Below, piece by piece: positions 3,664 through 33,558 of a stretch of 64,000 nucleotides of DNA (the stretch's first letter is position 1; every line of letters begins with the position of its first letter). Origin of the DNA: Arachis hypogaea (lineage: Eukaryota; Streptophyta; Magnoliopsida; Fabales; Fabaceae); NCBI RefSeq assembly GCF_003086295.3, contig NC_092040.1:60863559-60927558 (forward strand), written 5' to 3'. The notes beneath the pieces were generated by a model. The model was not told the origin of the DNA. It saw only the letters and a program-made list of their open reading frames with translations, and did not search any database. Made by a program: the position numbers and the translations under genes.

Positions 3664-3702
3664 TGCACCGAGGATGGTGCAAACTTTTAAGTGTGGGGAG
3701 GT
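3664..3702 (+). promoter_or_regulatory. Internal hairpin plus second polypurine tract, E1
   Basis: TGCACC-G-AGGA-T-GGTGCA (3664-3681) forms a six-base-pair stem plus a closing G-T wobble around the loop AGGA. AAGTGTGGGGAGGT follows at 3689-3702. The purine tract is identical to the one abutting the 3' LTR at 5200-5213, about 1.5 kb downstream. Confidence 0.75.
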
Positions 3703-5176
3703 CGTCCGACCGGTCGGCGATTTTGGGTGACAAATTTCTAATCCCAACACTTTTGCATTTCATTTTAGGTTTTTTTTTGGATTTTTTTTATTTGCATTTT
3801 TCCTATTTTTGCATACATATACACAATAAGCTTAGTCAAAATAATGAAATTTTTCAAGAAAATTATCCATAGGGCACCTCAATTGATTTGAGTGAAAAAT
3901 TTTCATAGAACTTGCTTGAATTATATATCTTGTGGATCATGTTTAGAGCTAAGAACACAAGCAAGTGAGTTTTGAGCCTATTGATGTGGTTACAATTTAT
4001 AACCACCTATTTTTCCTTCTTGTGTGCATTATTCTCTTTCTATGATTGTAATCTTTGAATTGTTTGATTCTTTATGTCCATTATTTTGTATATTCATGCA
4101 TTTATATGATTGAGGCCATCATTTCATTTAGCCCACTTACCCAAATAGCCTACCTTGTATCTTCCATTGTTAGCCAATTTGCGCCTACGATTAACCCACT
4201 TGTTCTTTAATTTAGCACATTACAAGCCTTAAAGCGAAAAACAATAAATGTCCTTATTTGGATCGTTGATTGACTTAGGCTAGTGTGTGTGAGTATCATT
4301 CAAGTGTGGGAAATCTTGGGACATTGGGGGAATAAAAGGGTAGTTTTGTATTTTTATTGAAATTATTTGGAATTGGGTACATGCTCATGTATTGATAAAA
4401 TGTATAGACCTTATGCATTGATATTCTTGTATATAATTTGAAAAAAAATGAGAAAAGAAAAATAATATGGAAAAGAAAAGAAAAAAATATATAGAAAGAA
4501 GAAAGAAAAAGAAGAAAAAAGAAAGAAATAAAAAGGGGACAAAAACACCCCAAAGTGAAGTTCAATAAAAGTCAATGCATAAGTGTTGTGAAATGAAAAA
4601 GAAATGCATGAGTATGTGGAAAAGTGAGGAACGAGTAGTTAGATTAGTACTTAATTGTATAGGTCATTATATAGGTTAGGTGGGAAGTCTAAGCTTATCA
4701 AAGATTCAAATTCCAAGCTCACTTAACCATATATGCATCCTACATTGACCCTAGCCCCATTACAACCTAAAGAAAAGACCTCATGATAATTGTATGCGTG
4801 CATGAAATATATGTTGATTGTGAGATGGAAAACAAATCTTGAAAAGCATGATTAGGAGAGAATTGAGAGAATCAACCCTAAACACTTGAGCGAATAGAGT
4901 GCAAACACTACCGGTGAGGGTTCGATTGCTCAACTACATGTTTTCACCCATAATGTCACTTTTCATGCAAGTTTGTAAAAATATTTAATAGCTCAACTCA
5001 ATTGTGGTTTGGCATGGTTGTTAATACCTTTTGCCCTTGAGCTTATATATGCATTCTGAGGAATTAATTTATTTTGACCAAGCAATTGCATTCATTTAGA
5101 TAGTTGCATATAGATAGATTGCATTTAGTTAGTTTCCATTAAATAAATGTCATGCCCTTTACTTCATTCTTGGTTT

Positions 5177-5213
5177 AAGCATGAGGACATGCTTGGTTTA
5201 AGTGTGGGGAGGT
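5177..5213 (+). promoter_or_regulatory. Terminal hairpin plus polypurine tract, E1
   Basis: AAGCATG-AGGA-CATGCTT (5177-5194) is a perfect seven-base-pair stem with loop AGGA. AAGTGTGGGGAGGT (5200-5213) abuts the LTR start TGATAAACC, which is the standard site for plus-strand DNA priming. Confidence 0.85.
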
Positions 5214-6688
5214 TGATAAACCCCATTTTTTAGGGTTTAACTTGTATTGACTTTAGGAGATTTTATTACCTTTTACCCACATTTATTCAATGAATTAGCA
5301 TGATTTTGTGATTGTCTCCTTATTTGTGCTTAGATGTGAAAACATACTTTTTAGGCCTTTAACATGACAATTTTAATCTCCCTTTGATTCCACTAGATGC
5401 CTTGATGTGTTTGTTAGTAATTTCAGATTGAAAAGGCCAGGAATGGATCAAAGGAGTGAAGAGGAAAGCATGCAAAGTGGAGAAATCAATGAAAGTCAAA
5501 GAAGTTGAACTCGCCCATGGACGCGCGCGCACACTTGGCGCTTGCGCGCAACCTGCGAATCACCCCATGGACGCGCACGCGGGATGTGCGCGTACGCGTT
5601 GGTGCCGGTTTATGATTTTTTTAATGAAAACGTACCCAACGAACTCTCAAGGGTTGTGGGGCCCAATCTCAACCAACTTTGGCGCCAGAAATGCTATTTA
5701 AAGCCAAGGAATGAAGAGCAAAGGGGGATTCCATTCATTCTTACACATTAGGATTAGTTAGAAGTAGTTTCTAGAGAGAGAAGCTCTCACTTCTCTCTAG
5801 GATTAGGATTAGGATTAGGTTTAGTTCTTAGATCTAGATTTTAATTCATCTTCTTCTACTTCTATCTTCTCAATTCCTTGTAGTGACATTCATTCTTCTT
5901 CCATTCTTTTGTTGTAATCTCTTTTATGTTGTTCTTGTATTTTGTTGTAGATCTACTTTTGTTCCTTCTATTTTCTTTCAATTCAATTTAAGGTAATTCA
6001 TAATAATTGTGTTTTTTTTTATTGTTGTTGTTAATTCCTTTCAATAATTGTTGTAGATTCTATTCTTGTTATCAATTTACTATGCTTTGCTTTTGTGCCT
6101 TCCAAGTGTTTGATGAAATGCTTGGTTGGATTTTAGTGTAGGTTTTGTTCCTCTTGGCCTAGGTAGAGTAATTAGTGACTCTTGAGTTATCTAATTCCTT
6201 TGTCGATTGATAATTAGTAGTTGCAAATTGATTTGACTACCTCTAAAGCTAGTCTTTCCTTTAGGTGTTGATTAGGACTTGAGGAATCAAATTGATTCAT
6301 CCACTTGACTTTCCTCCATGGTTAGAGGTTAACTAAGTGGGAGTAATGGACAATTTGTTGTCACAATTGAGGAGGATAACTAGGATAGGACTTCTAGTTC
6401 TCATATCTTGCCAAGAGCTTTGTTAGTTGTTAGTTTATTTTCTTTGCCATTTATATTTCTTGTCTAAAATCTTAAAAACCCCAAAATAACTCATAACCAA
6501 TAACAAGACACTTTATTATAATTCCTAGGGAGAACGACCCGAGGTTCAATACTTCGGTTTATAAATTTAGGGGTTTGTTTTAGTGACAAACAACCTTTTG
6601 TATGAGAAGATTATTGTTTGGTTTAGGAACTATACTTGCAACGAGAATTCATTTGTGAAATTCTAAACCATCAAAAATCCAATCATCA
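5214..6688 (+). repeat. E1 3' LTR (1475 bp)
   Basis: It begins TGATAAACCCC right after the polypurine tract and ends AATCATCA. It contains GC-rich CGCG words at 5516-5603, a TATA-like TATTTAAA at 5695-5702, then a purine/pyrimidine hairpin (GAGAGAAG 5776-5783 with CTTCTCTC 5790-5797) and GGATTA repeats to about 5820. Confidence 0.9.
5695..5702 (+). promoter_or_regulatory. TATA-like box of the A-family LTR
   Basis: TATTTAAA lies 70-100 bases before the conserved hairpin and GGATTA tract. The equivalent sequence and spacing are at 63524-63530 in the last LTR of the window. The transcription start is inferred, not shown. Confidence 0.55.
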
Positions 6689-7314
6689 GCTTTGCACTTT
6701 GAGCCTAGCCGTGACTTTAAATGTTTTGTCTCAAGCTTTACTTGACACAGAAATACCACAAGCACTTAACCGGGGAACTCTCTTTAAGTTCTAAATATTT
6801 TTATTTTATTTTTTTATTATTATCCCCAGACAGTGGTGCTCAAAGCCTTTGGCGTACTCTGCAATTGATCTCGACTCTAAATGTTTTGTCTTAAGGATTA
6901 CTTGACACAAGAACACCACAAGCATGTGACTAGGAAAACAACTCTTTGAGCTTTTAATCATGTCTGACCTCCCTAGTCATTGATGTTCAGAGCCTTGGAC
7001 CTTGCTTTTATTTTTCTTTTGCAGTTTCTTTTGCTTCAAGGATTAAACTTTCATTAATTTTAGAAAAATCATAATAATTCTCTAAATTCCTGTTCTTTGT
7101 ACATCAACATTCTTTCATTCAAATTTAAATATGCACTGTTCATGTCATGCATTTAGAATTACAATTAATACCACCACATTTAAGTAAATAAGACTACTCT
7201 TAAAATTAATTCAATTTCTCATGCAATACATCACTTATGTATTTTTTATTTGAATTCAAGTTCAGTGAGTAATACATGAGACATCTTTTCAGAATTAAGG
7301 CAACTAAGAGGAAA

Positions 7315-7515
7315 CTAAACTAGTCCTAGGATTCTAACTAATAAAGGATCATGCAACAAACAAAGCAAAATAGCAGAAAATCGGAACATAACATAGAAAA
7401 AGAGGGGATGAATAAAAAATGAAAGGAACTCAACCACCTTAGTTATCCTAGCAGTCGCTTTATTCTTCAGGTTGTGCTCCTCAGTGAAGATGATTCGCCT
7501 CCCTTTTGGTGCCAT
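7315..7515 (-). pseudogene. R2 third-ORF start, truncated
   Basis: An ATG at 7515 opens a 66-residue frame beginning MAPKGRR, similar to MAPKGKQ at the start of the R1 third ORF (33596). As in R1, the hairpin TTTGCTTG-AGGA-CAAGCAAA and AAGTTTGGTGT lie just upstream. After about 35 residues it turns hydrophobic and no longer resembles the R1 protein, so the rest of the gene has been lost or replaced. Confidence 0.5.
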
Positions 7516-7548
7516 AGGAATAAACAGAAAACCCTTAAGCGAAGCGTC

Positions 7549-7585
7549 AACACCAAACTTAAAGGTTTGCTTGTCCTCAAGCAAA
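7549..7585 (-). promoter_or_regulatory. Internal hairpin plus PPT-like motif, R2
   Basis: On the minus strand TTTGCTTG-AGGA-CAAGCAAA (7585-7566) is followed by AAGTTTGGTGTT (7560-7549). The hairpin is identical to the R1 internal copy at 33521-33540, although the two elements lie in opposite orientations. Confidence 0.75.
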
Positions 7586-7689
7586 GAAGAACTGAAAATA
7601 GAAAGAAACAAATATTATGATGAAAGAAAAAAAAGGATAAAAGAATAAGAGAAAATTAGGATTGCGAGAGGGGGAAAGAAAATTAAAAC

Positions 7690-8250: not shown

Positions 8251-8369
8251 TTTTTTTCCGGTTCCTGTTCTAAAATAGCTGCATGATCAAAAAATTAGTA
8301 AGAACTCACTAAAAATCAAATATGTAAGAAAATTACTACTACGAAAAATAACTAAGGATACGAAATTAT

Positions 8370-8391
8370 TGGGTTGCCTCCCGACAAGTGC
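8370..8391 (-). promoter_or_regulatory. Post-pol hairpin GGGAGGCAACCC, R2
   Basis: On the minus strand, about 35 bases after the integrase stop, GGG (8382-8380) pairs with CCC (8373-8371) around AGGCAA. The same element, with longer stems, follows pol in R1 (32748-32763) and the second ORF in B (15880-15897). Confidence 0.65.
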
Positions 8392-8425
8392 CTCTTTAAC
8401 GTCACTAGCTTGACGGTCAGTTCTG

Positions 8426-11400
8426 CTAGTTCAGCAGATGAGTGGACCTCTGACGATCAATCTCGCCTCCAAGATAGTGCTTCAACCTCTGGCTATTCAC
8501 TGTAAATTTCCTGTCATAATTCTCTTCCTGTACAAACAGTCCTGACCATCGGGATTTCAGCTTCCCAGGAAAGAATTTGAGCCTTGAATTATATAGAAGC
8601 ACTCTTTGTCCTGGCTCAAAGACTCTGATGGCAATCTTCTTGTCATGCAGTAGCTTGGTTCTCTCCTTATAGAGCTTGGCATTCTCATAGGCTGAATATC
8701 TGAATTCATCAAGCTCATTCAACTGAAGCATTCGCTTAATTCCTGCATCTTCTAAATCAAGATTCAGATACCTGATTGCCCAGTAAGCTTTGTACTCCAG
8801 TTCAACTGGCAGGTGACAGGCTTTACCATAAACCAACTGATAAGGGGACATGCCAATAGGAGTCTTGTACGCTGTTCGGTATGCCCAGAGAGCATCATCA
8901 AGCTTCCTAGACCAGTCCTTTCTTGAAACACTGACGGTCTTCTCTAGAATCCTCTTAAGTTCCCTATTGGAAACTTCAACCTGTCCACTTGTCTGAGGGT
9001 GATAGGGGGTTGCCACTTTATGACAGACTCCATATCTCTGCAGAAGAGTCTAGCTGTCTGTTGCAGAAATGGCTTCCTCCATCACTAATAAGTGTCCTTG
9101 GGACACCAAACCGGCTAAAGATATATCTCTGAAGAAAGCTCATTATCACTTTGGCATCATTGGGGGGCAAAGCCATAGCTTCCACTTACTTGGACACATA
9201 GTCAACTGCCACTAGAATATAGTTGTTTGAATGTGAGGGTGGGAAAGGTCCCATGAAATCAATACCCCACACATCAAACAACTCAACCTCAAGAATCCTC
9301 TGCTGTGGCATTTCATGGTTGGAAGAGAGATTCGTGGCTTTTTTACATCTGTCACAGTGCTTTACAAATGCTCTTGAGTCCCTGAAGAGAGTCGGCCAAT
9401 AAAACCCGCTCTTAAGGACCTTTGTAGCTGTCCTTTCACCACCAAAGTGGCCTCCATACTCAGAACCATGACAATGCCAAAGAATCTACTATTTTTCTTC
9501 ATCTGGGACACACCTCCGGATAATTCCATTTGAACACCTTTAAAAAGGTATGGTTCCTTCCAAATGTAGTACTTTGCATCAGTCAATAGCTTCTTCACTT
9601 GTTGCCTACTGTACTTCCTTGGGATAAACTTTATGGCCTTATAATTTGCAATGTCTGCAAACCATGGAGCCTGCTGAATGAGGAACAATTGCTCATCCGA
9701 AAACGTCTCAGTCACAGCAGTGGGTGGTTGTACTCCTGCTTCAGGCTCAATTCCGAAAAGATGGTCAGCTACTTGATTCTCTGAACCTTTCCTATCTTTT
9801 ATCTCAATATCAAACTCCTGAAGGAGCAATATCCATCTGATTAATCTTGGTTTAGAATCCTGTTTGGTTAGAAGGTACTTCAAAAAAGCATGATCAGTAT
9901 AAATAATAACTTTAGAACCAAGTAAATAGGACCTAAACTTATCAACAACATACACAACAGCTAATAATTCCTTTTCTATAGTTGTGTAATTCTTTTGGGC
10001 ATCATTTAACACACGACTGGCATAGTAAACGACATGTACAAGCTTACCATGCCTCTGTCCTAAAACATCTCCTATAGCAAAGTCACTAGCATCACACATT
10101 AATTCAAATGGTAGATCCCAGTCAGGGGGAGCTATAATGGGAGCAGAGGTAAGGTTTGCTTTTAGAGTTTCAAAAGCATGCAAATAATCAGAATCAAAGG
10201 CAAAAGGAACATCAGCAACCAACAGGTTGCTTAGAGGTTTAGCAATTTTAGAAAAATCCTTTATAAATCTTCTATAAAATCCTGCGTAACCCAAGAAACT
10301 CCTGACTGCCTTAACATTAGTTGGTGGTGGTAATTTTTCAATTACCTCCACCTTTGCTCTATCAACCTCAATTCCCTTACTTGAAATCCGGTGTCCAAGA
10401 ACAATATCTTCTGTAACCATAAAATGACATTTTCCCAATTTAAAGCAAGGTTTGATTCTTGACACCGTTTCAAGACAAGAGATAAATGCTTAAGGCAAGA
10501 TTCAAAAGAATTACCAAAAACAGAAAAGTCATTCATAAATACCTCAATAAACTTTTCAACCATATCAGACAAAATTGAAAGCATACACCTCTGAAAAGTT
10601 GCTGGAGCATTGCAAAGTCCAAAAAGCATTCTTCTGTAGGCAAATACTCCAAAGGGGCATGTGAATGCTATCTTCTCTTGATCTTGAGGGTCCACTACAA
10701 TTTGATCATATCCAGAATATCCATCTAGAAAATAATAAAATGCATGACCAGCTAAACTCTCAAGCATCTGATCAATGAAAGGCAGGGAGAAGTGATCCTT
10801 CCTTGTAGCAGTCTTGAGCCTTCTGTAGTCTACACACATCCTCCAACATGTGATTGTTCCTGTGGGAATAAATTCATTTTTTTCATTCTTGATCACTGTC
10901 ATCCCTCATTTCTTGGGACCCACCTGCACAGGACTTACCCTAGGACTGTCAGAAATAGGGTAAATAATTCCTGCTTTCCATAGTTTCATTACCTCTTTTT
11001 GGACCACCTCTTTCATGGTTGGATTGAGTCTCCTTTGTGGTTGCACAACTGGTTTAGCATCATCTTCAAGGAGGATCTTGTGCATACACTTGGTTGGACT
11101 AATCCCCTTCAAGTCACTAATGGTCCACCCAAGAGTTGTTTTATGGCTCTTGAGCACTGAAATAAGCACCTCTTCCTCTTCAGGCTTCAGGGAAGAGCTA
11201 ATAATCACTGGATATGAGTCATTCTCACCCAGGAACACATATTTCAGAGAAGGAGGTAAGGATTTAAGCTCAAGCTTGGGGGCTTCCTCCTCTACTTTAG
11301 GCGTGTGAACCATAGCCTTCTGGGGTAGTGAATTATCAACATCAACTAATTTATACTCAGAGATAGGATCCAGAATGTCATCAAGCACCTTAGCTTTCAG

Positions 11401-11460: not shown

Positions 11461-11465
11461 GTGCT

Positions 11466-12901
11466 TGATGAGAGAACTTTTGCGTGGTCTAGAAATTTGC
11501 GGATAAATCCTCGTTGCAAGTATAGTTTCTAAACCTTCAAAAGTCCTTTCATACAAACATTTTGGTTGTCACAAGTAACAAACCCCTTCAAAATTGATAA
11601 CCGAGTATTAAACCTCGGGTCGTCTTCTCAAGGAATTGCAGGGAGCTATGTTCTTATTATGAAAAAGGTAAAATTGGGGTTTTGGAAGTAAGGGGGCAGT
11701 ACGTTGCACAAAAAATAATAAGAAAAATAAATAAATAACTATAAAATAAACTCTTGGCAAGGTATGGGAACTGAAGGTCCTATCCTGGTTATCCTTATCA
11801 ATTGTAATGAGAATTGGATTTTTCTCCCACTTTGTTAACCTCTAACTGTGAAAGTAAGTTAAGTGGATGAATTAATTCTAATTCTCAACTAACAATGAGT
11901 TTGATAACTCAAGAGTCACCAATTATTTAACCAAGACCAAAAGGAAAGAAAATTGTATCTACTAGAGTAACAATATCTTCAGATTGGGGATGATAAAAAG
12001 AAAGCAAACACAATTCTAAAATACCTCAATTATATTAAATAAAATATTCAAATCATAACATGGAACAGTTCATAAATTTAATTGGAAAAATAAATAAAAA
12101 GAAACATTGAACCTGAATCGAGAGTCACTCTTAAAAACCAAGAGAAGTCCTAAATCCTAGTTTCTAAAAATCCTAATTTCTAATCCTAATCCTAATCTTA
12201 AGAGAGAGAGAGGAGAGAACCTCTCTCAAAACTAAATATAAATCATGGAAAGTGAATTATGAGAGCATGATTATGAATGGATGCATTCCCCCACTTTATA
12301 GCCTCTAATCTGTGTTTTATGGGCCGAAAACTGGGTCAGAAACAGCACAGAAGTCACTTCCAGCGCTTTTTGGTCCGTACAGGTCGCGGAAAAGTGACGC
12401 GGCCGTATGGCTCACGCGGCCGCGCGGGTTGCATGCCTGCCAGGTCACGCGTTCGCATCGCCTGGCGTCAGGGCAGTTATGGCAAATTATATATAAAATC
12501 GAAGCTCCGGACGTTAGCTTTCCAACGCAACTAGAACCGCGTCGTTTGGATCTCTGTAGCTAAAGTTATAGCCGTTTGAGTGCGAAGAGGTGAGGCTGGA
12601 CAGCTTAGCAATTTCTCCAACTTATTGTATTCCTTCCACTTTTGCATGCTTCCTTTCCATCCTCTGAGTCATTCCTGCCTTGTAATCTCTGAAATCACTT
12701 AACACACATATCAAGGCATCTAATGGTAATAAGAGAGGATTAAGCATAGGGAACTTAAGGCCAAAGAAGCATGTTTTCAATCAAAGCACATAATTAGGAA
12801 GGCAAATGTAAAACCATGCAAATAGTATGAATAAGTGGGTAAAGAGTTGATAAAAACCACTCAATTGAGCACAAGATAAACCATGAAATATGGGTTTATC
12901 A
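11466..12901 (-). repeat. B 3' LTR (1436 bp)
   Basis: It is bounded by the target duplication on the left and by the polypurine tract (12902-12915) on the right. The 17-base stretch near 12405-12421 in the CGCG words is missing from the 5' copy. Confidence 0.9.
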
Positions 12902-12940
12902 ACCTCCCCACACTTAAACATTAGCATGTCCTCATGCTAA
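12902..12940 (-). promoter_or_regulatory. Terminal hairpin plus polypurine tract, B
   Basis: On the minus strand TTAGCATG-AGGA-CATGCTAA (12940-12921) is a perfect eight-base-pair stem with loop AGGA. AAGTGTGGGGAGGT (12915-12902) follows, abutting the LTR. Confidence 0.85.
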
Positions 12941-14322: not shown

Positions 14323-14468
14323 ACCTCCCCACACTTAAAGGTTGCACCGTCCTCGGTGCATGCAAAACTGTACAGGTGGGCGGATGGCTCCGCAGCTCGT
14401 GCTCTTTGTGTTCCTTTCCTTGCCAGTGGTATAAGAGTAGCATTTTCGTTACCTTTCTTGGTGGCCAT
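14202..14468 (-). pseudogene. B third-ORF remnant
   Basis: The frame begins MATKKGNENA at 14468 and encodes 88 residues. The internal hairpin and polypurine tract lie inside its nucleotide span, so only about the first 35 residues could be former coding sequence. The homologous start in C has lost its ATG (CTG at about 23157). I do not recognise a domain. It may be the beginning of the env-position ORF, with the remainder deleted. Confidence 0.35.
14323..14360 (-). promoter_or_regulatory. Internal hairpin plus second polypurine tract, B
   Basis: On the minus strand TGCACCG-AGGA-CGGTGCA (14360-14343) is a perfect seven-base-pair stem with loop AGGA. AAGTGTGGGGAGGT (14336-14323) follows and matches the terminal tract exactly. 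Confidence 0.8.
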
Positions 14469-17700: not shown

Positions 17701-19074
17701 TTGCAAGTATAGTTTCTAAACCTTCAAAAGTCCTTTGATACAAACGTTTTGGTTGTCACAAGTAACAAACCCCTTTAAAATTGATAACCGAGTATTAAAC
17801 CTCGGGTCGTCTTCTCAAGGAATTGCAGGGATGTATGTTCTTATTATTGGCTATGAAAAAGGTAAAATTGGGGTTTTGGAAGTAAGGGGGCAGTATGTTG
17901 CACAAAAAATAATAAGAAAAATAAATAAATAACTATAAAATAAACTCTTGGCAAGGTATGGGAACTGGAGGTCCTGTCCTGGTTATCCTTATCAATTGTA
18001 ATGAGAATTGGATTTTTCTCCCACTTTGTTAACCTCTAACTATGAAGGTAAGTTAAGTGGATGAATTAATTCTAATTCTCAACTAACAATGAGTTTGATA
18101 ACTCAAGAGTCACCAATTATTTAACCAAGACCAAAAGGAAAGAAAATTGTATCTACTAGAGTAACGATATCTTCAGATTGGGGATAATAAAAAGAAAGCA
18201 AACACAATTCTGAAATACCTCAATTATATTAAATAAAATATTCAAATCATAACATGGAACAGTTCATAAATTTAATTGGAAAAATAAATAAAAAGGAACA
18301 TTGAACCTGAATCGAGAGTCACTCTTAAAAACCAAGAGAAGTCCTAAATCCTAGTTTCTAAAAATCCTAATTTCTAATCCTAATCCTAATCCTAAGAGGG
18401 AGAGGAGATAACATCTCTCAAAACTAAATCTAAATCATGGAAAGTGAATTATGAGAGCATGATTATGAATGGATGCATTCCCCCATTTTATAGCCTCTAA
18501 TCTGTGTTTTCTGGGCCGAAAACTAGGTCAGAAACAGCCCAGAAGTCACTTCCAGCGCTTTCTGGTCCGTACAGGTCGCGGAAAAGTGACACGGCCGCGC
18601 GGGTTGCGTTCCTGCCAGGTCACGCGTTCGCGTCACCTGGCATCGAGGCAGCTATGGCAAATTATATATTAAATCGAAGCCCCGGACGTTAGCTTTCCAA
18701 CGCAACTGGAACCACATCGTTTGGATTTCTGTAGCTAAAGTTATAGCCGTTTGAGTGCGAAGAGGTCAGGTTGGACAGCTTAGCAATTTCTCCAACTTAT
18801 TGTATTCCTTCCACTTTTGCATGCTTCCTTTCCATCCTGAGTCATTCCTGCCTTGTAATCTCTGAAATCACTTAACACACATATCAAGGCATCTAATGGT
18901 AATAAGAGAGGATTAAACATAGGGAACTTAAGGCCAAAGAAGCATGTTTTCAATCAAAGCACATAATTAGGAAGGCAAATGTAAAACCATGCAAATAGTA
19001 TGAATAAGTGGGTAAAGAGTTGATAAAAACCACTCAATTGAGCACAAGATAAACCATGAAATATGGGTTTATCA
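17701..19074 (-). repeat. B 5' LTR, lacking its last ~48 bases
   Basis: It aligns with 11514-12901 almost throughout. The outer end GGGTTTATCA is followed by target duplication GTGCT. Confidence 0.88.
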
Positions 19075-19079
19075 GTGCT

Positions 19080-20103: not shown

Positions 20104-20108
20104 TTGCT

Positions 20109-21602
20109 TGAAGAGAGAATTTTTGCGTGGTTTAGAATTCAGAATAAATTCCCGTTGCAAGTATAGCTTCTAAACCAACAAAAGTCCTTTCTTACAAATA
20201 TTTTGGTTGTCACAAGTAACAAACCCCTTTGAAATTGATAACCGAAGTATTTAAATCTCGGGTCGTCTTCTCAAGGAATTACAGGGAGGTATTTTCTTAT
20301 TATTGGTTATGAGTCTTGTAAATTGGGGGTTTTGAAAGTAAGAAAGAAGTATGTTCAATGATAAGAAAATTAAAATAGTAATAATAAAATAAACTTTTGG
20401 CAATGTATTAGAATTGGAAGTCCTATCCTTATCAATTGTGATGAGAATTGGATTTTAATCCCACTTAGTTAACCTTTAATAAAGCAAAGGAAAGTCAAGT
20501 GGAATAATTAGTTTGATCCTCAAGTCCTAGTCAATCCCTGTGGGAAGACTAGCTTTAGAGCGATCTGCCAATTTCAACCACTGCTTTATTTGATAACTCA
20601 AGCGTCACCAATTACTTAACCAGAGCCAAAAGGAAAAATTCTAAATTAAATTAAAGACATCATAAATAGAATAAAGCAAGCATAAATCTGAAATACCTCA
20701 ATTGCACTAATAAAAGCAGTCAAATCTAACAGGGAAAAGTTTATAAGCCAATTGGGCAACATAAGTCAGATACAAATAAAAGCATTAGAGTATCTAAAAG
20801 TGGAAGAGAAATATAAAGTAAAAGGAATATTGAACCTGATATAAAGATGAAATAAATCCTAATCCTGATAGAAATCCTAATCCTAAATCCTAAGAGAGAG
20901 AAGAGAGCCTCTCTCTCTAAAAACTACATCTAAAACCTAAAATTGTGAGTAATGATTGAATGATCTGATTCTGTTCCACTCCCAGCCTCTAATCTGTGTT
21001 TTCTGGGCCGAGAACTGGGTCAAAAATAGCTCAGAAGTCACTCCCAGTGCTTTCTGGTCCGTACAGGTCGCGACAGAGTGACGCAGAGGCGTCGTCCACG
21101 CGTTTGCGTGGATTGAAGTTCGCAGATGCGACACGAGCGCGGCATCCACGCGTTCGCATCGCCTAACTTCGGGGCAACTATGGCAAATTATATATCTTTG
21201 CGAAGCCCCGGATGTTAGCTTTCCAACGCAACTGGAACCATCTCATTTGGACCTCTGTAGATCAAGTTATGACCCTTTGAGTGCGAAGAGGTCAGGCTGG
21301 AGAGCTTTGCAGTTCCTTCAACTTCTTGTATTCCTTCCACTTTTGCATGCTTCCTTTCCATCCTCTGAGCCATTCCTGCCCTATAATCTATGAAATCACT
21401 TAACACACATATCAAGGCATCTAATTGTAATAAGAGAGGATTAATATTAGCAAATATAAGGCCAAAGAAGCATGTTTTCAATCTTAGCACAAAATCAGGA
21501 AGGAGAATGTAAACCCATGCATTTAGTATGAATAAGTTTATGAAAGATTGATAAAATCCACTCAATTAAGCACAAGACAAACCATAAAATAGTGGTTTAT
21601 CA
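20109..21602 (-). repeat. C 3' LTR (1494 bp)
   Basis: Bounded by the target duplication and by the polypurine tract (21603-21616). The portion 20691-21602 is nearly identical to the partial 5' LTR at 24391-25300. Confidence 0.88.
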
Positions 21603-21641
21603 GCCTCCCCACACTTAAACATTAGCATGTCCTCATGCTAA
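21603..21641 (-). promoter_or_regulatory. Terminal hairpin plus polypurine tract, C
   Basis: TTAGCATG-AGGA-CATGCTAA on the minus strand (21641-21622), then AAGTGTGGGGAGGC (21616-21603) against the LTR. The final T of the usual tract is C here. Confidence 0.82.
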
Positions 21642-23030: not shown

Positions 23031-23068
23031 ACCTCCCCACACTTAAAGATTGCACCGTCCTCGGTGCA
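23031..23068 (-). promoter_or_regulatory. Internal hairpin plus second polypurine tract, C
   Basis: TGCACCG-AGGA-CGGTGCA (23068-23051) followed by AAGTGTGGGGAGGT (23044-23031), identical to the internal module of B. Confidence 0.8.
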
Positions 23069-24350: not shown

Positions 24351-24390
24351 TGTTTTTTTATGCAAGATGCAAAATGTAGTATGCAAATCT

Positions 24391-25300
24391 AAATACCTCA
24401 ATTGCACTAATAAAAGCAATCAAATCTAACATGGAAAAGTTCATAAGCCAATTGGGCAACATAAGTCAGATACAAATAAAAGCATTAGAGTATCTAAAAG
24501 TGGAAGAGAAATATAAAGTAAAAGGAATATTGAACCTAATATGAAGATGAAATAAATCCTAATCCTGATAGAAATCCTAATCCTAAATCCTAAGAGAGAT
24601 GAGAGAGCCTCTCTCTAAAAACTACATCTAAAACCTAAAATTGTGAGTAATGATTGAATGATCTGATTCTGTTCCACTCCCAGCCTCTAATCTGTGTTTT
24701 CTGGGCCAAGAACTGGGTCAAAAATAGCCCAAAAGTCACTCCCAGCACTTTCTGGTCCGTATAGGTCGCGGCAGAGTGACACGGAGGCGTCGTCCACGCG
24801 TTTGCGTGGATTAAAGTTCGCAGATGCGACGCGGGCGCGTCATCCATGCGTTCGCGTTTCCTAAATTCGGGGCAGCTATGGCAAATTATATATCGTTGCG
24901 AAGCCCCGGATGTTAGCTTTCTAACGCAACTGGAACCATCTCATTTATACCTCTGTAGATCAAGTTATGACCGTTTGAGTGCAAAGAGGTCAGGCTGGAC
25001 AGCTTTGCAGTTCCTTCAACTTCTTATATTCCTTCCACTTTTGCATGCTTCCTTTCCATCCTCTGAGCCATTCCTGCCCTGTAATCTCTGAAATCACTTA
25101 ACACACATATCAAGGCATCTAATGGTAATAAGAGAGGATTAATATTAGCAAATATAAGGCCAAAGAAGCATGTTTTCAATCATAGCACAAAATCAGGAAG
25201 GAGAATGTAAACCCATGCATTTAGTATGAATAAGTGTATGAAAGATTGATAAAATCCACTCAATTAAGCACAAGACAAACCATAAAATAGTGGTTTATCA
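24391..25300 (-). repeat. C 5' LTR, 910-bp partial
   Basis: It matches 20691-21602 of the 3' LTR. The deletion joint shows short shared sequence (AATCT then AAATACCTC). Confidence 0.85.
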
Positions 25301-25305
25301 TTGCT

Positions 25306-27122: not shown

Positions 27123-27128
27123 AGTTTT

Positions 27129-27146
27129 TGGCGCCGTTGCCGGGGA
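27129..27146 (+). other. R1 primer-binding site, tRNA-Asp
   Basis: TGGCGCCGTTGCCGGGGA is an 18-base match to the complement of the plant tRNA-Asp 3' end, typical of Athila elements. Confidence 0.9.
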
Positions 27147-27699
27147 TTGTTGAGTTTGGACAACTGACGGCTTATCTTGTTGCTTAGATTAGGACTGTTT
27201 TATTTTTGTTGGTTTAGAGTCTTTTAGTTGAGTCTAGTTTCATATTCTAAGTTTGGTGTCAATTGCATGCTTTTGTTTTTCTTTTAATTTTCGAATTTTG
27301 CATGTTTTTAGTCCCTTTTTGATTCATAAAAATTCTAAGTTTGGTGTCCTCTTTGTGTTTTTCCCTTAAAAGTTTTCGAAAATTTTGTGTTTGATTTTCT
27401 AAAATTTTAAGTTTGGTGTCTTTTTGTGTTTTTCTCTTTCCTCTTTTTAAAAAAAAAAATCAAATCTTTTTCATAAAAATTTTTCAATCATATCTTTTTA
27501 ATTGCTGTTTTCAAAATCTTTTTAATTAACTAATTGATTCAGTTTTCAATTTGCTTTGATTCTATTTTCTTTTTGATTTTCGAATTTTTACTTTAATTTT
27601 CTTTTATTTTATTTTATTTTTTTCGTTAATTCAAAAAAAAAAAAACAAACAAACAAAATTTATCTCTCTGCAATCATTATCATTTCCCTTTTGTCCATT
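27147..27699 (+). other. R1 leader with three AAGTTTGGTGTC copies
   Basis: A T-rich untranslated leader. AAGTTTGGTGTC occurs at 27249-27260, 27337-27348 and 27409-27420. The same motif stands beside the third ORF (33547) and at the PPT position of R3 (1944). The 3' part is an A/T-run region with no ORF. Confidence 0.65.
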
Positions 27700-30600
27700 A
27701 TGGACTTAAGTGGGATCAATCAGTCCAAAAGGACTCTGGGGTCATATGCTAACCCCATTACAGCTGCATATGGGAGTAGCATCTGTACACCTCCCATCAA
27801 AGCAAGCAGCTTTGAACTAAATCCTCAACTCATTATCATAGTGCAGCAAAACTGCCAGTATTCCGGTCTTCCACAGGAAGAACCTACTGAGTTTCTGGCA
27901 CAGTTTTTACAAATTGCTGACACAGTACATGATAAAGAGGTAGATCAGGATGTCTACAGACTATTACTGTTTCCATTTGCTGTAAAGATCAAGCAAAAAG
28001 GTGGTTGAATAACCAACCTACAGCAAGCATAAAGACATGGAAACAGTTGTCAGACAAATTCCTGAATCATTTTTACCCTCCTAAAAGGATGACACAGTTA
28101 AGGCTGGACATCCAAGGCTTTAAACAAGAGGATAATGAATCCCTTTATAATGCCTGGGAGAGGTATAGAGGTATGCTCAGAAAATGTCCCTCTGAAATGT
28201 TTTCAGAGTGGGTACAGTTAGACATTTTCTACTATGGGCTTACAGAAAAGGCTCAGATGTCTTTAGACCACTCAGCTGGTGGATCTATACACATGAGGAA
28301 GACAATTGAAGAAGCTCAAGAGCTTATAGACACTGTTGCTAGAAACCAATATTTGTATTCTAGCAATGAGTTCTCTCCAAAAGAGGAAGTCATGACAGTA
28401 GTCACTGACCCTAATCCTCAAGAACAGATAAATGAGCTTAATCAACAATTGCTCCTGATGACAAAACAGTTAGCAGACTTTAAAGAGATGCTCTATGAAA
28501 CTAAAGTTGCTAACAAGAGCATAGAACTGCAGTTGAATCAAGCAAAACAGCAAATATCTAAACAGATAACAGAGGAATGTCAAGCAGTTCAATTGAGGAG
28601 TGGGAAGACCCTGAATAACACTGCTCAAAAGAGTAAAAAGCCAAACAAGGAACAATTGACAGAGGACAACCAAACCACTGTTCAAAATCCCTCTGAGGAC
28701 AATAAGAGCCCAGAGAGGAATGTTATTGGCGTTCAAACGCCAGAAAGGGAAGGAAAGTTGGCGTTAAACGCCCATTCCTTGCCCAGTTCTGGCGTTCAAA
28801 CGCCAGAAAAGGGGGAAAAGTTGGCGTTAAATGCCCAATTTCCTCCCAATCCTGGCGTTCAGACGCCTGGGGAGAATCAGACACCTGAGAGTGCTGACAG
28901 TAATCCCTCTAACAAGGCTTCTTCAACCACTTCTGTAAGGAATAAACCTGCAGCATCTAAGGTTGAAGAATATAAAGCCAAGATGCCTTATCCTCAAAAA
29001 CTCCGCCAAGCGGAACAGGATAAGCAATTTGCCCGCTTTGCAGACTATCTAAGGACTCTTGAAATAAAGATTCCGTTTGCAGAGGCACTTGAGCAAATAC
29101 CTTCTTATGCTAAGTTCATGAAAGAAATCTTAAGTCATAAGAAGGATTGGAGAGAAACTGAAAAAGTATTTCTCACTGAAGAATGCAGTGCAGTCATTCT
29201 GAAAAGCTTACCAGAAAAGCTTCAAGATCCAGGAAGCTTTATGATACCATGCACATTAGAAGGTGCTTGCACCAAGACAGCCCTATGTGATCTTGGAGCA
29301 AGCATCAACCTAATACCTGCATCCACTATCAGAAAGCTTGGGTTGACTGGAGAAGTCAAACCAACCAGGATATGTCTCCAACTTGCTGATGGCTCAATTA
29401 AATACCCATCAGGCATAACTGAGGACATGATTGTCAAGGTTGGACCATTTGCCTTTCCCACTGACTTTGTAGTGCTGGAAATGGAGGAGCACAAGAGTGC
29501 AACTCTCATTCTAGGAAGACCCTTCCTAGCAACTGGACGAACTCTCATTGATGTACAAAAAGGGGAAGTAACCTTGAGAGTCAATGAGGATGAGTTCAAG
29601 TTGAATGCTGTAAAAGCTATGCAGCATCCAGACAGACCAAATGACTGCATGGGCGCAGACATTATTGACTCTCTGGTAGAAGAGATCAATATGGCTGAGA
29701 GCCTAGAATCAGAGCCTGAGGACATCTTCAAAGATGCTCAACCTGATCAAGAAGAACTAGAGGAGGCAAAGGAATTTTCGAAAATTCCTCAGGAGGAGGA
29801 TAAGCCTCCCAAGCCTGAACTCAAACCACTACCACCATCCCTGAAATATGCATTTCTGGGAGAGGGTGACACTTTTCCAGTGATTATAAGCTCTGCCTTA
29901 AATTCACAGGAAGAGGAAGCACTGATTCAAGTGCTAAGGACACACAAGACAGCTCTTGGGTGGTCCATAAGTGATCTTAAGGGTATTAGCCCAGCTAGAT
30001 GCATGCACAAGATCCTGTTGGAGGATAATGCCAAACCAGTGGTTCAACCACAGAGGAGGCTAAATCCTGCCATGAAGGAGGTGGTGCAGAAAGAGGTCAC
30101 TAAATTACTAGAGGCTGGGATTATTTATCCTATTTCTGATAGCCCCTGGGTGAGCCCTGTCCAAGTTGTTCCCAAAAAGGGAGGCATGACAGTGGTTCAT
30201 AATGAAAAAAATGAACTGGTTCCTACAAGGACAGTCACAGGGTGGCGCATGTGTATTGACTACAGAAGGCTCAATACAGCCACCAGAAAGGATCATTTTC
30301 CTTTACCATTCATAGACCAAATGCTAGAAAGACTAGCTGGCCATGATTATTACTGCTTTTTGGATGGCTATTCAGGCTACAACCAAATTGCAGTAGATCC
30401 TCAGGACCAAGAGAAAACAGCATTCACTTGCCCTTCTGGCGTGTTTGCCTACAGGAGGATGCCTTTTGGTTTGTGCAATGCACCTGCAACCTTTCAGAGG
30501 TGCATGCTCTCTATCTTCTCAGATATGGTAGAGAAATTTCTGGAAGTCTTCATGGATGACTTTTCAGTATATGGAGACTCATTTAACTCCTGTCTTAATC

Positions 30601-32705
30601 ACCTAGCACTTGTCTTGAAAAGATGCCAAGAGACTAACCTGGTTTTAAACTGGGAAAAATGTCACTTTATGGTGACTGAAGGAATTGTCCTTGGGCACAA
30701 AATTTCAAGCAAGGGAATAGAGGTGGATAAGGCAAAGGTAGAGGTAATTGAAAAATTACCACCACCTGCCAATGTTAAGGCAATCAGAAGCTTTCTGGGG
30801 CATGCAGGGTTCTACAGAAGGTTTATAAAGGATTTCTCAAAAATTGCAAAACCTCTGAGTAACCTGTTAGCTGCTGACACACCATTTGTGTTTGACACAC
30901 AGTGTCTGCAGGCATTTGAGACCCTGAAAGCTAAGCTGGTCACAGCACCAGTCATCTCTGCACCAGATTGGACATTGCCATTTGAACTAATGTGTGATGC
31001 CAGTGATCATGCCATTGGTGCAGTGCTGGGACAGAGGCATAACAAGCTTCTGCACGTCATTTACTATGCCAGCCGTGTTCTAAATGACGCACAGAAGAAC
31101 TACACAACCACAGAAAAAGAGTTGCTTGCAGTGGTCTATGCCATTGACAAGTTTAGATCCTATCTAGTGGGATCCAAAGTGGTTGTGTACACTGACCATG
31201 CTGCTCTTAAATATCTACTCACAAAGCAGGATTCAAAACCCAGGCTCATCAGATGGGTGTTGCTTCTGCAAGAGTTTGATATAGAAATAAGAGACAGAAA
31301 AGGGACAGAGAACCAAGTAGCTGATCATCTGTCCCGAATAGAACCAGTAGCTGGGGCGTCCCTCCCTTCTACTGAGATTTCTGAGACTTTCCCAGATGAG
31401 CAACTCTTTGCCATTCAGGAAGCTCCATGGTTTGCAGATATTGCAAATTATAAAGCTGTGAGGTTCATACCCAAAGAGTACAGCCATGTGCAGAGAAAGA
31501 AATTAATTTCAGATGCCAAGTACTACTTATGGGATGAACCATATCTCTTTAAGAGATGTGCTGACGGAGTGATCCGCAGGTGTGTACCCAGAGAAGAAGC
31601 ACAACGGATCCTAGGGCACTGCCATGGATCACAGTATGGAGGACATTTTGGAAGTGAGCGAACAGCCACTAAAGTCCTCCAATGTGGCTTCTACTGGCCT
31701 ACTCTCTATAAAGATTCCCGAGAGTTTGTGCGTAACTGTGACAGTTGCCAAAGAGCTGGTAACCTGCCTCATGGATATGCCATGCCTCAACAAGGGATAT
31801 TAGAGATAGAACTGTTTGATGTATGGGGAATTGACTTCATGGGGCCATTCCCACCATCATACTCAAACACTTACATTCTGGTGGCAGTGGACTATGTGTC
31901 TAAGTGGGTAGAAGCAATTGCTACACCCACCAATGATACAAAGACCGTACTGAAATTCCTCCAGAAAAACATTTTCAGCAGGTTTGGAGTGCCCAGAGTG
32001 CTAATCAGTGACGGGGGCACTCATTTCTGCAATAAACAGCTACACCTTGCTATGGTTAGGTATGGAATTAGCCACAAAGTGGCAACTCCGTATCATCCAC
32101 AGACAAATGGGCAAGCTGAGGTCTCTAACAGAGAGCTAAAAAGAATCCTAGAACGGACTGTGATAGCCCGAAGAAAGGATTGGGCAAAGAGCTTGGATGA
32201 TGCTCTGTGGGCATACAGAACAGCATTCAAGACTCCTATAGGAACCTCCCCATACCAACTGGTATATGGGAAGGCCTGTCATTTGCCTGTGGAACTGGAA
32301 CATAAAGCCTACTGGGCAACCAGATTCCTAAACATGGATGCACAGTTAGCTGGTGAAAAAAGATTGCTCCAGCTAAATGAGCTAGAGGAGTTCAGACTCA
32401 ATGCCTTTGAAAATGCAAAAATTTATAAGGAAAAGGCAAAGAAATGGCATGACAAGAAGTTGTCAACCAGAGTCTTTGAGCCAGGACAAAAAGTTCTGCT
32501 CTTCAACTCTAGGCTCAGACTGTTTCCAGGAAAACTCAAATCCCGTTGGAGGGGTCCGTATGTGATTACAGGAGTGTCACCATATGGATATGTTGAGCTT
32601 CAGGATATTGATTCTGACAAGAAGTTCATTGTTAATGGACAGAGAATCAAGCATTATCTTGAAGGAAACTTTGAGCAGGAATGCTCAAAACTGAGGCTTG
32701 AGTGA
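27700..32705 (+). pseudogene. R1 gag-pol polyprotein, one frameshift
   Basis: ATG at 27700 (MDLSGINQSK). A single-base deletion near 27985 ends the first frame at 28008; the second frame is open from 28005 to 32705 (1566 codons), with positions counted from 28005. Capsid-type gag is at about 1-110 ([18 protein letters not shown]), then a 21-residue tandem repeat (242-288). The protease has CDLGAS near 427 and [12 protein letters not shown] has CIDYRRLN near 748 and FMDD near 848. RNase H has CDASD, TEKE and YTDHA (995-1065). Integrase has its zinc finger near 1204-1245, then GIDFMG, SDGGTHF and GQAEVSNRE. There is no chromodomain, which fits Athila. Pol looks catalytically complete; the gag frameshift probably prevents full polyprotein. 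Confidence 0.9.
28728..28868 (+). repeat. 63-bp tandem repeat in R1 gag built from palindromic words
   Basis: Two full 63-base units (28728-28790, 28791-28853) and a partial third. Each unit contains GGCGTTCAAACGCC and GGCGTTAAACGCC (or one-base variants) and encodes GVQTPE...KLALNA in frame. The words match those in the LTR and in the array after pol. Confidence 0.85.
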
Positions 32706-32740
32706 TTCTCAGTGAAAGTCCAGCTAAAGACAGTAAAGAA

Positions 32741-32763
32741 GCGCTTGCTGGGAGGCAACCCAG
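32741..32763 (+). promoter_or_regulatory. Post-pol hairpin CTGGG-AGGCAA-CCCAG, R1
   Basis: It begins about 35 bases after the pol stop. Stem CTGGG (32748-32752) with CCCAG (32759-32763), loop AGGCAA, preceded by GCGCTTG. I recall similar GGGAGGCAACCC sequences in Athila elements of other plants, but cannot check that here. Confidence 0.65.
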
Positions 32764-32870
32764 TCATTAGGAGGTTATATGATTAGTTCTTACAGAGGCA
32801 AATATCAAAAATGAAGGAATTCACAGAGTTACAGAAGGATTCAGCTCAAAAAACAGAGAAAATGAGCTTA

Positions 32871-33171
32871 CTGGCGAAAAAAACGCCAGTAAGGGGCATT
32901 TTGGGCGTTAAACGCCAGAATGGGTACCGTTCTGGGCGTTAAACGCCCAGAATGGTGCCATTTTGGGCGTTTAACGCCCAAAATGGCACCATTCCTGGCG
33001 TTAAACGCCAGGTGTGCAGCATCCTGGGCGTTTTGAAAAACGCCCAGTGATAAAGGCTTTCTGGCGTTTAACGCCAGCCAGGGCACCTGGCTGGGCGTTA
33101 AACGCCCAAAAGGGGTGCCAATTGGGCGTTAAACGCCAGAATGGGTGCCATTCTGGGCGTTTAACGCCAGA
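32871..33171 (+). repeat. Array of ten GGCGTTnAACGCC palindromes, R1
   Basis: Ten inverted-repeat words begin near 32871, 32902, 32932, 32963, 32996, 33024, 33061, 33091, 33123 and 33152, about 28-37 bases apart. 32950-32994 is a 45-base palindrome: 22-base arms (32950-32971, 32973-32994) pair perfectly around one T. Linkers such as AATGGGTGCCATTCT add to the symmetry. It lies between pol and the third ORF and appears non-coding. Confidence 0.9.
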
Positions 33172-33520
33172 AAGGTGGGGGGACCACATTTTTGTTTTCA
33201 ACTCAAATTTTTTCAAACTTTCCTCTTTTTACCCATACTCTTCTACATAAATGCACTTCAACCTTTCATCATTCACTTTCAAATCTTCACAAATCAAAAC
33301 CATTCTTCAAATCTATTTCAAATTAAACCCAAATCTTCTTCAAAAACTCACCCTTTTCTCAATTTCTTTCACAATCTTCTCAAATCTCCTTTCAAATCTC
33401 TCTTTTTTTTTCGAAAATACTCTCCCCCTCACCTTATAAATTCGTGTTTGGCTTCCTCATTACACCACACCATTTGAATTTCCTCTTCCTCTCTCTCTCT
33501 CTTCTCTCCTTTCTTCTCTT
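33172..33520 (+). other. R1 pyrimidine-rich region before the third ORF
   Basis: Dense TTC/CTT/ACC sequence with TTCAAATC-type repeats and a CT run at 33485-33510. No supported ORF. It may serve as an untranslated leader or a splice-acceptor tract for the third ORF; this is inference. Confidence 0.45.
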
Positions 33521-33558
33521 TTTGCTTGAGGACAAGCAAAACCTCTAAGTTTGGTGTG
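33521..33558 (+). promoter_or_regulatory. Internal hairpin plus PPT-like motif, R1
   Basis: TTTGCTTG-AGGA-CAAGCAAA (33521-33540) is a perfect eight-base-pair stem with loop AGGA. AAGTTTGGTGTG follows at 33547-33558, then the third ORF starts at 33596. Confidence 0.78.

Follow-up and report, generated by a model that had tools for sequence, protein, structure and literature searches.

A covarying G-RGGA hairpin tied to the polypurine-tract motif of Athila-type retrotransposons in Arachis hypogaea

The window, that is, the whole 64-kb stretch of DNA that was analysed, holds LTR retrotransposons, here called elements A to F, in which hairpins with an RGGA loop lie next to a polypurine tract (PPT) or a motif in the PPT position. 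The features concerned are the following:

1919–1938, + strand: terminal hairpin of element F (T-type, inside element C), GTTGCTTG-GGGA-CAAGCAAC
1943–1954, + strand: terminal motif of element F, TAAGTTTGGTGT; the 3′ LTR starts at 1957
3664–3681, + strand: internal hairpin of element C, TGCACCG-AGGA-TGGTGCA, with a G·U closing pair
3688–3701, + strand: internal motif of element C, TAAGTGTGGGGAGG
5177–5194, + strand: terminal hairpin of element C, AAGCATG-AGGA-CATGCTT
5199–5212, + strand: terminal PPT of element C; the 3′ LTR starts at 5214
5214–6688, + strand: 3′ LTR of element C
7566–7585, − strand: internal hairpin of element E (T-type), TTTGCTTG-AGGA-CAAGCAAA; motif at 7550–7561
11514–12901, − strand: part of the 3′ LTR of element A, aligning with part of its 5′ LTR at 17701–19074 (95.0% identical)
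12903–12916, − strand: terminal PPT of element A; the 3′ LTR runs from 12901 downwards
12921–12940, − strand: terminal hairpin of element A, TTAGCATG-AGGA-CATGCTAA
14343–14360, − strand: internal hairpin of element A, TGCACCG-AGGA-CGGTGCA; motif at 14324–14337
20105–21602, − strand: 3′ LTR of element B
21604–21617, − strand: terminal PPT of element B; the 3′ LTR runs from 21602 downwards
21622–21641, − strand: terminal hairpin of element B, TTAGCATG-AGGA-CATGCTAA, the same arms as in element A
23051–23068, − strand: internal hairpin of element B, TGCACCG-AGGA-CGGTGCA; motif at 23032–23045
27248–27419, + strand: three copies of TAAGTTTGGTGT with no AGGA hairpin, located past the PBS-like motif and before gag in element D
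27936–32705, + strand: gag-pol frame of element D, with gag, protease, reverse transcriptase (RT), RNase H and integrase domains
33520–33541, + strand: internal hairpin of element D (T-type), TTTTGCTTG-AGGA-CAAGCAAAA; motif at 33546–33557
33530–34450, + strand: env-like ORF of element D, Transposase_32 (PF20167), after pol and downstream of the internal hairpin

Pfam analysis of element D revealed the domain order Retrotrans_gag, Asp_protease_2, RVT_1, RT_RNaseH, Integrase_H2C2 and rve; neither a second RNase H nor a chromodomain family reached E≤1e-3. This gag-PR-RT-RH-IN order, lacking a chromodomain and an additional RNase H and followed by an env-like ORF after pol, is that of the Athila lineage (Ty3/gypsy, OTA). 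Part of a Pipoka RT probe is 67–68% identical over about 290 nt to elements D and E. The PBS-like sequence TGGCGCCGTTGCCGGGG, a putative form of the PBS complementary to tRNA-Asp that is a trait of the Athila lineage, is found exactly at 27129 and with one mismatch at 611. Element D also carries an array of palindromes. Its env-like frame has its first ATG at 33596, 55 nt past the internal hairpin, and a TATA-like box upstream; in the G-type loci L237 and L252, whose pol lies outside the sequence read, the Transposase_32 frames end at the internal module. In element B, 20684–21602 aligns with part of the 5′ LTR at 24385–25300 (95.4% identity, 919 nt), and in element C, 6087–6688 aligns with the 5′ LTR end at 1–607 (96.5% identity). 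Because their LTRs are 95–96.5% identical, elements A, B and C are, to judge from sequence divergence, mid-aged, and at this LTR identity all three keep both hairpins, one internal and one at the 3′ PPT.

All nine hairpins of the preliminary description are present at their places, with some details corrected: the stem noted at 1920 has 8 bp and begins at 1919, that noted at 33521 has 9 bp and begins at 33520, and the closing pair at 3664 is G·U. Four of the nine (1920, 5177, 12940 and 21641) are terminal, adjoining a 3′ LTR, and five (3664, 7585, 14360, 23068 and 33521) are internal, with no 3′ LTR adjoining. The PPT-type motif that had been said to follow them does so in every case, AAGT[G/T]TGG[G/T]G lying 12–14 nt past the loop. 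A scan of both strands of the 64 kb for [A/G]GGA loops on Watson–Crick stems of at least 7 bp returned exactly eight hairpins (seven AGGA, one GGGA), all among the nine and all preceding the motif at this distance; 60 first-order Markov shuffles averaged 0.12 and never gave more than 1. ATAT/TATA repeats aside, the 4-nt loop seen most often on stems of 7 bp or longer in the window is AGGA (TCCT when read on the opposite strand). Motif copies free of a hairpin occur in the window as well, for example at 27248, 27336 and 27408, and Rfam gave no match at gathering score in the 64 kb.

Alignment of the nine hairpins gave 87.7% paired among 81 cells, compared with 59.4 ± 4.1% after shuffling (0/500) and 36.1% in the best slid register, and a covariation score of 0.787 (shuffled 0.227; 0/500). 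Both-sided change at seven of the nine stem pairs is not exceptional by itself (shuffles 4.9; 49/500). A larger alignment had been set beforehand as a test of covariation, and here 45 distinct arms, from a sample of genome sites found by motif, were paired in 89.4% of cells (shuffled 55.5 ± 2.0%), with 133 double-changed cells (48.6) and a covariation score of 0.879 (0.258), each reached by 0/500 shuffles. Covariation is thus present in the larger set, and the earlier claim of a covarying stem with a fixed loop, linked to the PPT, holds in both this sample and whole-genome counts. At stem pair 2, T-A (63,045) and C-G (14,738) far outnumber C·A (798) and T·G (810) across the genome, an odds ratio of 1,437. 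The closing pair (G-C 8,593, G·U 1,011, A·C 533, A-U 63) shows no compensation in the whole-genome counts, the 63 A-U pairs matching the 62.7 expected from independent decay; G·U closing pairs also occur in the stem classes GGCACCG/TGGTGCC and AGCATTG/TGATGCT. Since the stem pair compensates and the closing pair does not, the unit consists of a G-RGGA cap and a stem that is free to vary in sequence. The module, found before the 3′ PPT and before the internal motif copy, consists of a stem of mostly 7–8 bp and nearly free sequence, a G-RGGA-Y cap, a short spacer and TAAGT[G/T]TGG[G/T]G. The fold itself appears to be under selection, because the arms change together while the loop stays constant.

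The hairpin observation is correct and reaches far beyond the 64-kb window. Counted over the 2.56 Gb of the source genome, the two PPT-position motifs have 39,947 and 349,887 copies, against 17 and 1,087 for their reversed controls. The hairpin has tens of thousands of copies; because copies are related by descent, the counts cannot be treated as independent. A stem of at least 6 bp precedes 49 of 53 sampled LTR-abutting motifs, against 5 of 53 when the upstream 30 nt are shuffled, and the remaining four look like decayed stems. The GGA loop is absent at 37 of the 67 T-type motif sites read, an underestimate of hairpin-free sites, because the sites read exclude 25 of the 100 places listed, whose position pointed to leader or triplet copies. 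With a purine content of only half, TAAGTTTGGTGT is a poor PPT.

Spacing was measured in 53 terminal modules whose stems reach 6 bp or more, including eight loci (L228–L235) retrieved with the hairpin as query: the first LTR base lies 19 nt from the stem base in 26 of 37 G-type and 18 nt in 13 of 16 T-type modules. In terminal modules the loop lies 11 nt from TAAG in 13 of the 19 stems of seven bp and 12 nt from it in 26 of the 27 stems of eight bp, which leaves a gap of 4 from stem base to TAAG in 39 of the 53; the other 14 are off by 1–2 nt. Modules without a following LTR start are more loosely spaced (4–7 nt to the motif) and have no LTR to define. In the 98 modules that have a stem of 6 bp or more, the PPT motif lies 3–7 nt 3′ of the stem base. 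HIV-1 RT is described as cutting RNA at a distance of 18 nt from the polymerase site (PMC5766924), an agreement that may be coincidence, because the active sites of Ty3 RT, a closer relative, are described as about 13 bp apart (PMC5371799).

We propose, with a probability of roughly 45%, that selection keeps this hairpin for its structure, as a cis element belonging to the plus-strand primer (PPT) module in Athila-type elements. Its most likely task would be the placing of RT and RNase H, since the stem base lies 18–19 nt from the LTR in most terminal copies. A folded stem in genomic RNA would stall RT once the LTR and PPT had been copied; the stalled enzyme would hold its RNase H over the PPT/U3 junction, where the primer end would be cut at the right base, and the internal copy would mark a second plus-strand start. 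The stricter form of this proposal, an RNA stem that stalls and measures from a base 18–19 nt before the PPT/U3 junction at two plus-strand origins, with selection acting on its fold and distance and not on its sequence, is doubtful. Motif sites that lack the hairpin, the half-purine TAAGTTTGGTGT and the looser modules with no LTR to define count against the proposal.

A packaging hairpin, whose exposed GGA is bound by Gag or nucleocapsid and whose nearness to the PPT is a coincidence or due to a signal region that both share at the 3′ end, is rather unlikely. Retroviral packaging hairpins with GGAG loops exist, and an exposed purine cap that is the constant part of a free stem, with an uncompensated closing G, is what a protein-read loop would give, as might the two copies each in elements A, B and C; yet packaging would not need fixed spacing to the PPT/LTR junction. 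The gag-pol of element D yielded neither a CCHC zinc-knuckle pattern nor a Pfam match to one, a weak argument, as the motif scan also missed the protease and integrase motifs. The hairpin may act as RNA or as single-stranded DNA. Stem pair 2 shows no RNA-strand bias across the genome (T·G, the RNA wobble, 810; C·A, the antisense wobble, 798), and this, with the palindrome array in element D, would suit action as DNA, whether as a cruciform, as a hairpin in single-stranded minus- or plus-strand DNA that serves reverse transcription or integration, or as a palindrome bound by a protein. We consider such action quite improbable: a protein site should keep its half-sites and free its spacer, the opposite of what is seen, and G·U exceeds A·C at the closing pair by 1.9 to 1 (an excess also explained by a conserved left G), with G·U closing pairs in two further stem classes. 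Folded alone, three terminal modules gave z of −2.43 to −2.95 and four internal ones −0.53 to −0.85 (seven of the nine were folded). That the internal ones are no more stable than shuffles, and that the minimum-energy fold of the lone module at 33521 in element D lacks the hairpin, speaks against the primer-module proposal.

Control of the env-like ORF, as a 5′ UTR structure or a splice- or start-site signal with the 3′ copy as a by-product, would fit the place of the T-type internal hairpin of element D, where 55 nt separate it from the first ATG and a TATA-like box lies upstream, but the internal hairpins of the G-type loci L237 and L252 stand at the end of that frame rather than before it and terminal copies adjoin an LTR, so that this role is very unlikely. 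Least probable is that pairing is not selected at all. Reverse transcriptases can jump within inverted repeats, and template switching of this kind could keep palindromes perfect while descent spreads them; the symmetric single changes at stem pair 2 do resemble neutral decay, but neither the fixed cap and fixed place at the PPT across different families nor the uncompensated closing pair (63 observed, 62.7 expected) would be explained.

How RT in LTR retrotransposons settles on the one correct primer end, when purine stretches abound, has yet to be explained. A covarying hairpin that keeps a set distance to that end, and is repeated in very high copy number, amounts to a natural collection of mutants and lends itself to a simple assay. 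The hairpin would also serve as a sharp landmark for annotating the PPT and the 3′ LTR border in the Athila-type lineage, and would suggest that the Athila-type extra PPT is more than a stray purine run.

Like the lentiviral central PPT, the internal module may provide a second plus-strand primer site within the element, initiation here being putative. The central PPT of HIV-1 lies in pol, whereas the motif described here lies past pol or where the env-like frame ends, and a termination signal or flap would be putative; we know of no conserved hairpin of this type at a lentiviral central PPT. Retroviral packaging hairpins likewise combine a constant exposed purine loop with a stem of freer sequence, and differ in usually lying in the 5′ leader rather than being tied to the PPT. 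That no named element of this type exists, as first supposed, needs qualification: both the extra PPT of Athila4 and Calypso and the stem-loop at the terminal PPT of Sireviruses are published (PMC2829016), while no description of the RGGA hairpin was found in the literature searched. As in Athila4 and Calypso, a second PPT-like copy lies between pol and the 3′ LTR of env-containing Athila-type elements; PMC2829016, in the section that cites them, mentions no hairpin. In Sireviruses (Ty1/copia), an inverted repeat or stem-loop at the terminal PPT has been proposed to guide primer formation, and several PPT copies lie between pol and the 3′ LTR, as here (PMC2829016). A Sirevirus-type PPT inverted repeat was considered for our hairpin and rejected, as the motif lies 3–7 nt 3′ of the stem base (98 modules) and non-terminal modules have the hairpin. 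By that account (PMC2829016), the Sirevirus repeat has the PPT as its outermost stretch on the left, and PPTs further upstream have no repeat, whereas here the PPT lies outside the stem, on its 3′ side, internal motifs can carry a hairpin of their own, and the stem is of free sequence under a G-RGGA cap in elements of a different superfamily.

Direct reading of the window sequence located all nine RGGA-loop hairpins named in the preliminary description. They fall within retrotransposon elements A–F, whose layout was derived from a self-comparison of the window and a reading of the borders:

17701–19074 and 11514–12901, minus strand: element A, aligned LTR parts, 95.0% identical; 5-nt target duplication AGCAC on both sides
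20684–21602 and 24385–25300, minus strand: element B, LTR parts, 95.4% identical; AGCAA on both sides
1–607 and 5214–6688, plus strand: element C, 5′ LTR end and 3′ LTR, 96.5% identical
From 25598, plus strand: element D, 5′ LTR, with a PBS-like motif at 27129, a gag-pol frame at 27936–32705 and an env-like frame at 33530–34450
8546–11292, minus strand: element E, pol, 73.7% identical to D
From 1957: 3′ LTR of element F, which lies within C
1920 (F), 5177 (C), 12940 (A), 21641 (B): terminal hairpins, abutting a 3′ LTR
3664 (C), 7585 (E), 14360 (A), 23068 (B), 33521 (D): internal hairpins, not abutting an LTR

The elements likely belong to Athila, judging by domain order and the env-like ORF; a 3′ LTR of D was not seen. 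The G-type motif TAAGTGTGGGGAGG characterizes elements A, B, and C, and the T-type motif TAAGTTTGGTGT elements D, E, and F. A, B, and C each carry a terminal and an internal hairpin with different stems (AGCATG class terminal, TGCACC class internal) and the same cap and motif. An exhaustive scan of the 64 kb for RGGA loops on a Watson–Crick stem of at least 7 bp returned eight hairpins against an expected 0.12, all of them among the nine, and the proposed tie to the PPT was borne out, with AAGT[G/T]TGG[G/T]G lying 3′ of 8/8. The ninth (3664) needs a G·U closing pair. Covariation was likewise evident among the nine window rows (score 0.787 versus 0.227 shuffled, 0/500; slid registers at most 0.190), and Rfam gave no match within the window. 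When seven of the nine modules (hairpin, spacer, and motif) were folded in isolation, the three terminal ones exceeded shuffled sequence in stability (z −2.43 to −2.95) and the four internal ones did not (z −0.53 to −0.85). In its minimum-energy fold the D module lacks the hairpin.

Covariation in a larger alignment had been set beforehand as a test and was found: for 45 distinct arms, aligned without gaps and with the loop placed by GGA and spacing only, the score was 0.879 versus 0.258 (0/500). In this set 89.4% of 360 cells are paired, versus 55.5 ± 2.0 after shuffling (0/500) and 42.5% in the best slid register, and 133 cells are altered on both sides (48.6 ± 5.8 shuffled, 0/500). The counts of pairs changed in both arms (7/8) and of further pair types (22) were not above shuffles (488/500 and 149/500, respectively), which is to be expected where nearly all pairs vary. 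In a set of 46 distinct arms, arm-to-arm mutual information peaks in the paired column for stem pairs 2, 3, 6, and 7; for pairs 4 and 5 a neighbouring column equals it or differs by no more than 0.03 bits, pair 8 falls below off-register columns, and the closing pair is near zero. Among the 7-bp stem classes with full pairing are TAGCATG, AAGCATG, TGCACCG, TTGCTTG, TTGCTCG, AGCATCG, AGCACGG, and GGCACCG.

Whole-genome counts (2.56 Gb, 440 contigs) tell selection apart from decay. TTGCTTG-RGGA-CAAGCAA occurs 63,045 times (reversed control 0), TAAGTGTGGGGAGG 39,947 times (control 17), and TAAGTTTGGTGT 349,887 times as an exact match (control 1,087); one rare pattern alone matches 19 of contigs C1–C20 of the source genome. 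At T-type stem pair 2, T-A (63,045) and C-G (14,738) are accompanied by rare intermediates (C·A 798, T·G 810), though each is one transition away. Decay alone predicts approximately 10 doubles and the table margins 3,043 (odds ratio 1,437). The sampled C-G class is located at internal modules and may represent one or a few amplified events. A built-in negative control comes from the closing pair of TGCACC-class stems (G-C 8,593, G·U 1,011, A·C 533): A-U occurs 63 times versus 62.7 under independence, and there is thus no compensation. Its G is therefore part of a cap, G-RGGA, that is read as sequence, and the stem apart from this pair is read as shape. At the closing pair, the 1.9-fold higher count of G·U than of A·C (p ~2e-34 if copies were independent, which they are not) fits either wobble tolerance in sense RNA or retention of G, and stem pair 2 has no T·G versus C·A bias (p 0.78); these results together make it likely, not proven, that the fold acts as RNA.

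Individual sites were taken in listed order from the start of contig C1: 95 of the first 100 G-motif places (the last five left out; first 19 Mb) and 75 of the first 100 T-motif places (first 10.4 Mb). The other 25 T-motif places, at positions of leader or triplet copies, were omitted deliberately, and motifs lacking the hairpin are therefore under-represented among the T-type sites. Duplicates and sites less than 60–120 nt from a locus end were excluded, by different keys between analyses, leaving 85 G-type sites for the stem count, 84 G-type and 67 T-type for the GGA-loop count, and 79 and 65 for the position split. Eight loci selected by the hairpin itself (L228–L235) are absent from these sets and from the 45-arm alignment, and are present in the outer-stem, TATA, distance, and mutual-information sets. 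An upstream stem of 6 bp or longer, closed by a 4-nt loop, was found at 71 of 85 distinct G-type sites, and the loop is AGGA in 67 of the 71. Such a stem (at least 6 bp) accompanies 35/38 G-type and 14/15 T-type sites that abut an LTR (shuffled upstream 4/38 and 1/15), the four exceptions keeping much of a known stem, and 30/41 and 13/50 of the other sites (shuffled 2/41 and 2/50). The GGA loop is absent at 8/84 G-type sites, four resembling loop-mutated hairpins and four in another context, and at 37/67 T-type sites, one of which resembles a decayed hairpin.

The T-type motif TAAGTTTGGTGT is repeated without an AGGA hairpin in the leader of D (27248–27419). A T-type triplet with 33-nt spacing, also lacking the hairpin, lies ~0.8–0.9 kb before the internal module in L286 (1500–1577) and L294; its sequence CAAACTCTAAGTTTG is itself an inverted repeat, as is the 33-nt-spaced unit CAAACTCTAAGTTTGGTGT. 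At four G-type loci (L241, L244, L320, and L326) the motif lacks the AGGA hairpin and has a near-complement of its own sequence 3′ of it (GGGGAGGTCCCCCTCCCC in L244); in L241, L244, and L320 a terminal module is 3.4–3.5 kb away. Modules recur every ~6,665 nt at C1:16538374–16553248 (L309–L311), which looks like a tandem array of whole elements with common LTRs, and similar module spacing (8.8–9.1 kb) occurs near C1:9.21 Mb and 0.35 Mb.

Several other readings of the hairpin were rejected. A coding explanation fails because stop positions differ (the D hairpin contains TGA, counted from the frame start, and the L252 frame stops at the TAA of the motif) and because the stem classes do not appear to encode a single peptide. 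An env 5′ UTR would place the module ahead of the env-like frame, as in T-type D, where the frame starts 3′ of the module with its first ATG 55 nt downstream, but in G-type loci L237 and L252 the Transposase_32 frames (332 and 293 codons) end inside it; the module is therefore not simply an env leader. First folds suggested that the PPT pairs with the pyrimidine tract upstream of terminal hairpins, a possible outer stem. Shuffling this tract changed little in 115 modules, which argues against a general feature (mean z −0.20 terminal G, −0.48 terminal T, +0.54 internal G, −0.86 internal T, where internal, as in the TATA and distance sets, means no intact LTR start next and may include terminal copies with damaged borders).

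Upstream of the internal hairpin of D, 33340–33520 holds a TATA-like box and a pyrimidine-rich stretch, which resemble a plant core promoter; TATAAA or TATATA lies 200–40 nt upstream of 6/20 internal modules, but also of 7/42 terminal ones. Element D also contains eight palindromic boxes, GGCGTT[A/T]AACGCC (32902–33170), which follow the pol stop, precede the env-like frame, and are mostly spaced by 31 nt. Their outer bases also change pairwise (TGGGCG...CGCCCA, CTGGCG...CGCCAG). The boxes bring to mind the palindromic repeats that have been reported upstream of the Sirevirus env gene (PMC2829016).

The hairpin is real and selected for structure, and in this one plant genome it is tied to the module that holds the plus-strand primer in two related types of retrotransposon. 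Among the 115 modules of the distance set, 58 abut an LTR start, and in 53 of these the stem reaches 6 bp or more. From stem base to first LTR base the distance is 19 (26 modules), 20 (6), or 21 nt (5) for the G-type and 18 (13), 19 (2), or 17 nt (1) for the T-type. The loop end lies 11 nt from TAAG in 13/19 seven-bp stems and 12 nt in 26/27 eight-bp stems; since this gap grows with stem length, the stem base, not the loop, tends to hold its distance, although 7/7 6-bp stems deviate from the usual value. Modules without a following LTR start have 4–7 nt between stem base and motif. HIV-1 reverse transcriptase cleaves 18 nt, also 17 nt, from the polymerase site (PMC5766924), and the distance is about 13 bp for the Ty3 enzyme (PMC5371799). 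Should the element's reverse transcriptase stall at the stem or a few nucleotides before it, the RNase H of the stalled enzyme would sit on or near the PPT/LTR junction, a match in distance that is no more than suggestive. Primer-end selection is the function we favour for the hairpin, with a probability of 0.45; that it does so by stalling and measuring in this way seems rather unlikely.

Pattern matches in which at least 4 consecutive positions pair occur in three of 137 viral-contig loci (L021, 8 with G·U; L117 and L130, 5) and are taken as chance, and a viral-contig search with the D gag-pol frame gave 12 stretches and no relatives. Prokaryote contigs gave 90 matches in 90 loci, with a longest pairing run of 6. 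In all of viral contigs L001–L019 (19/19), TTTAAGTGTGGGGAGG lies within the same conserved context (GACCTTTGCGTTTTTAAGTGTGGGGAGGCTGCTGCCC), with no AGGA hairpin beside it. Titles and abstract openings of the literature searched do not describe the hairpin, and the word is absent from the main texts, as far as available, of PMC1142308 (Diaspora), PMC11963269 (Retand), PMC7264820, and PMC2410132 (Athila); the original Athila4/Calypso and BAGY-2 papers may mention it. The Sirevirus repeat has been proposed to aid correct primer formation (PMC2829016, section 18), and work on Ty1 cited in the same paper found the PPT sequence insufficient by itself.
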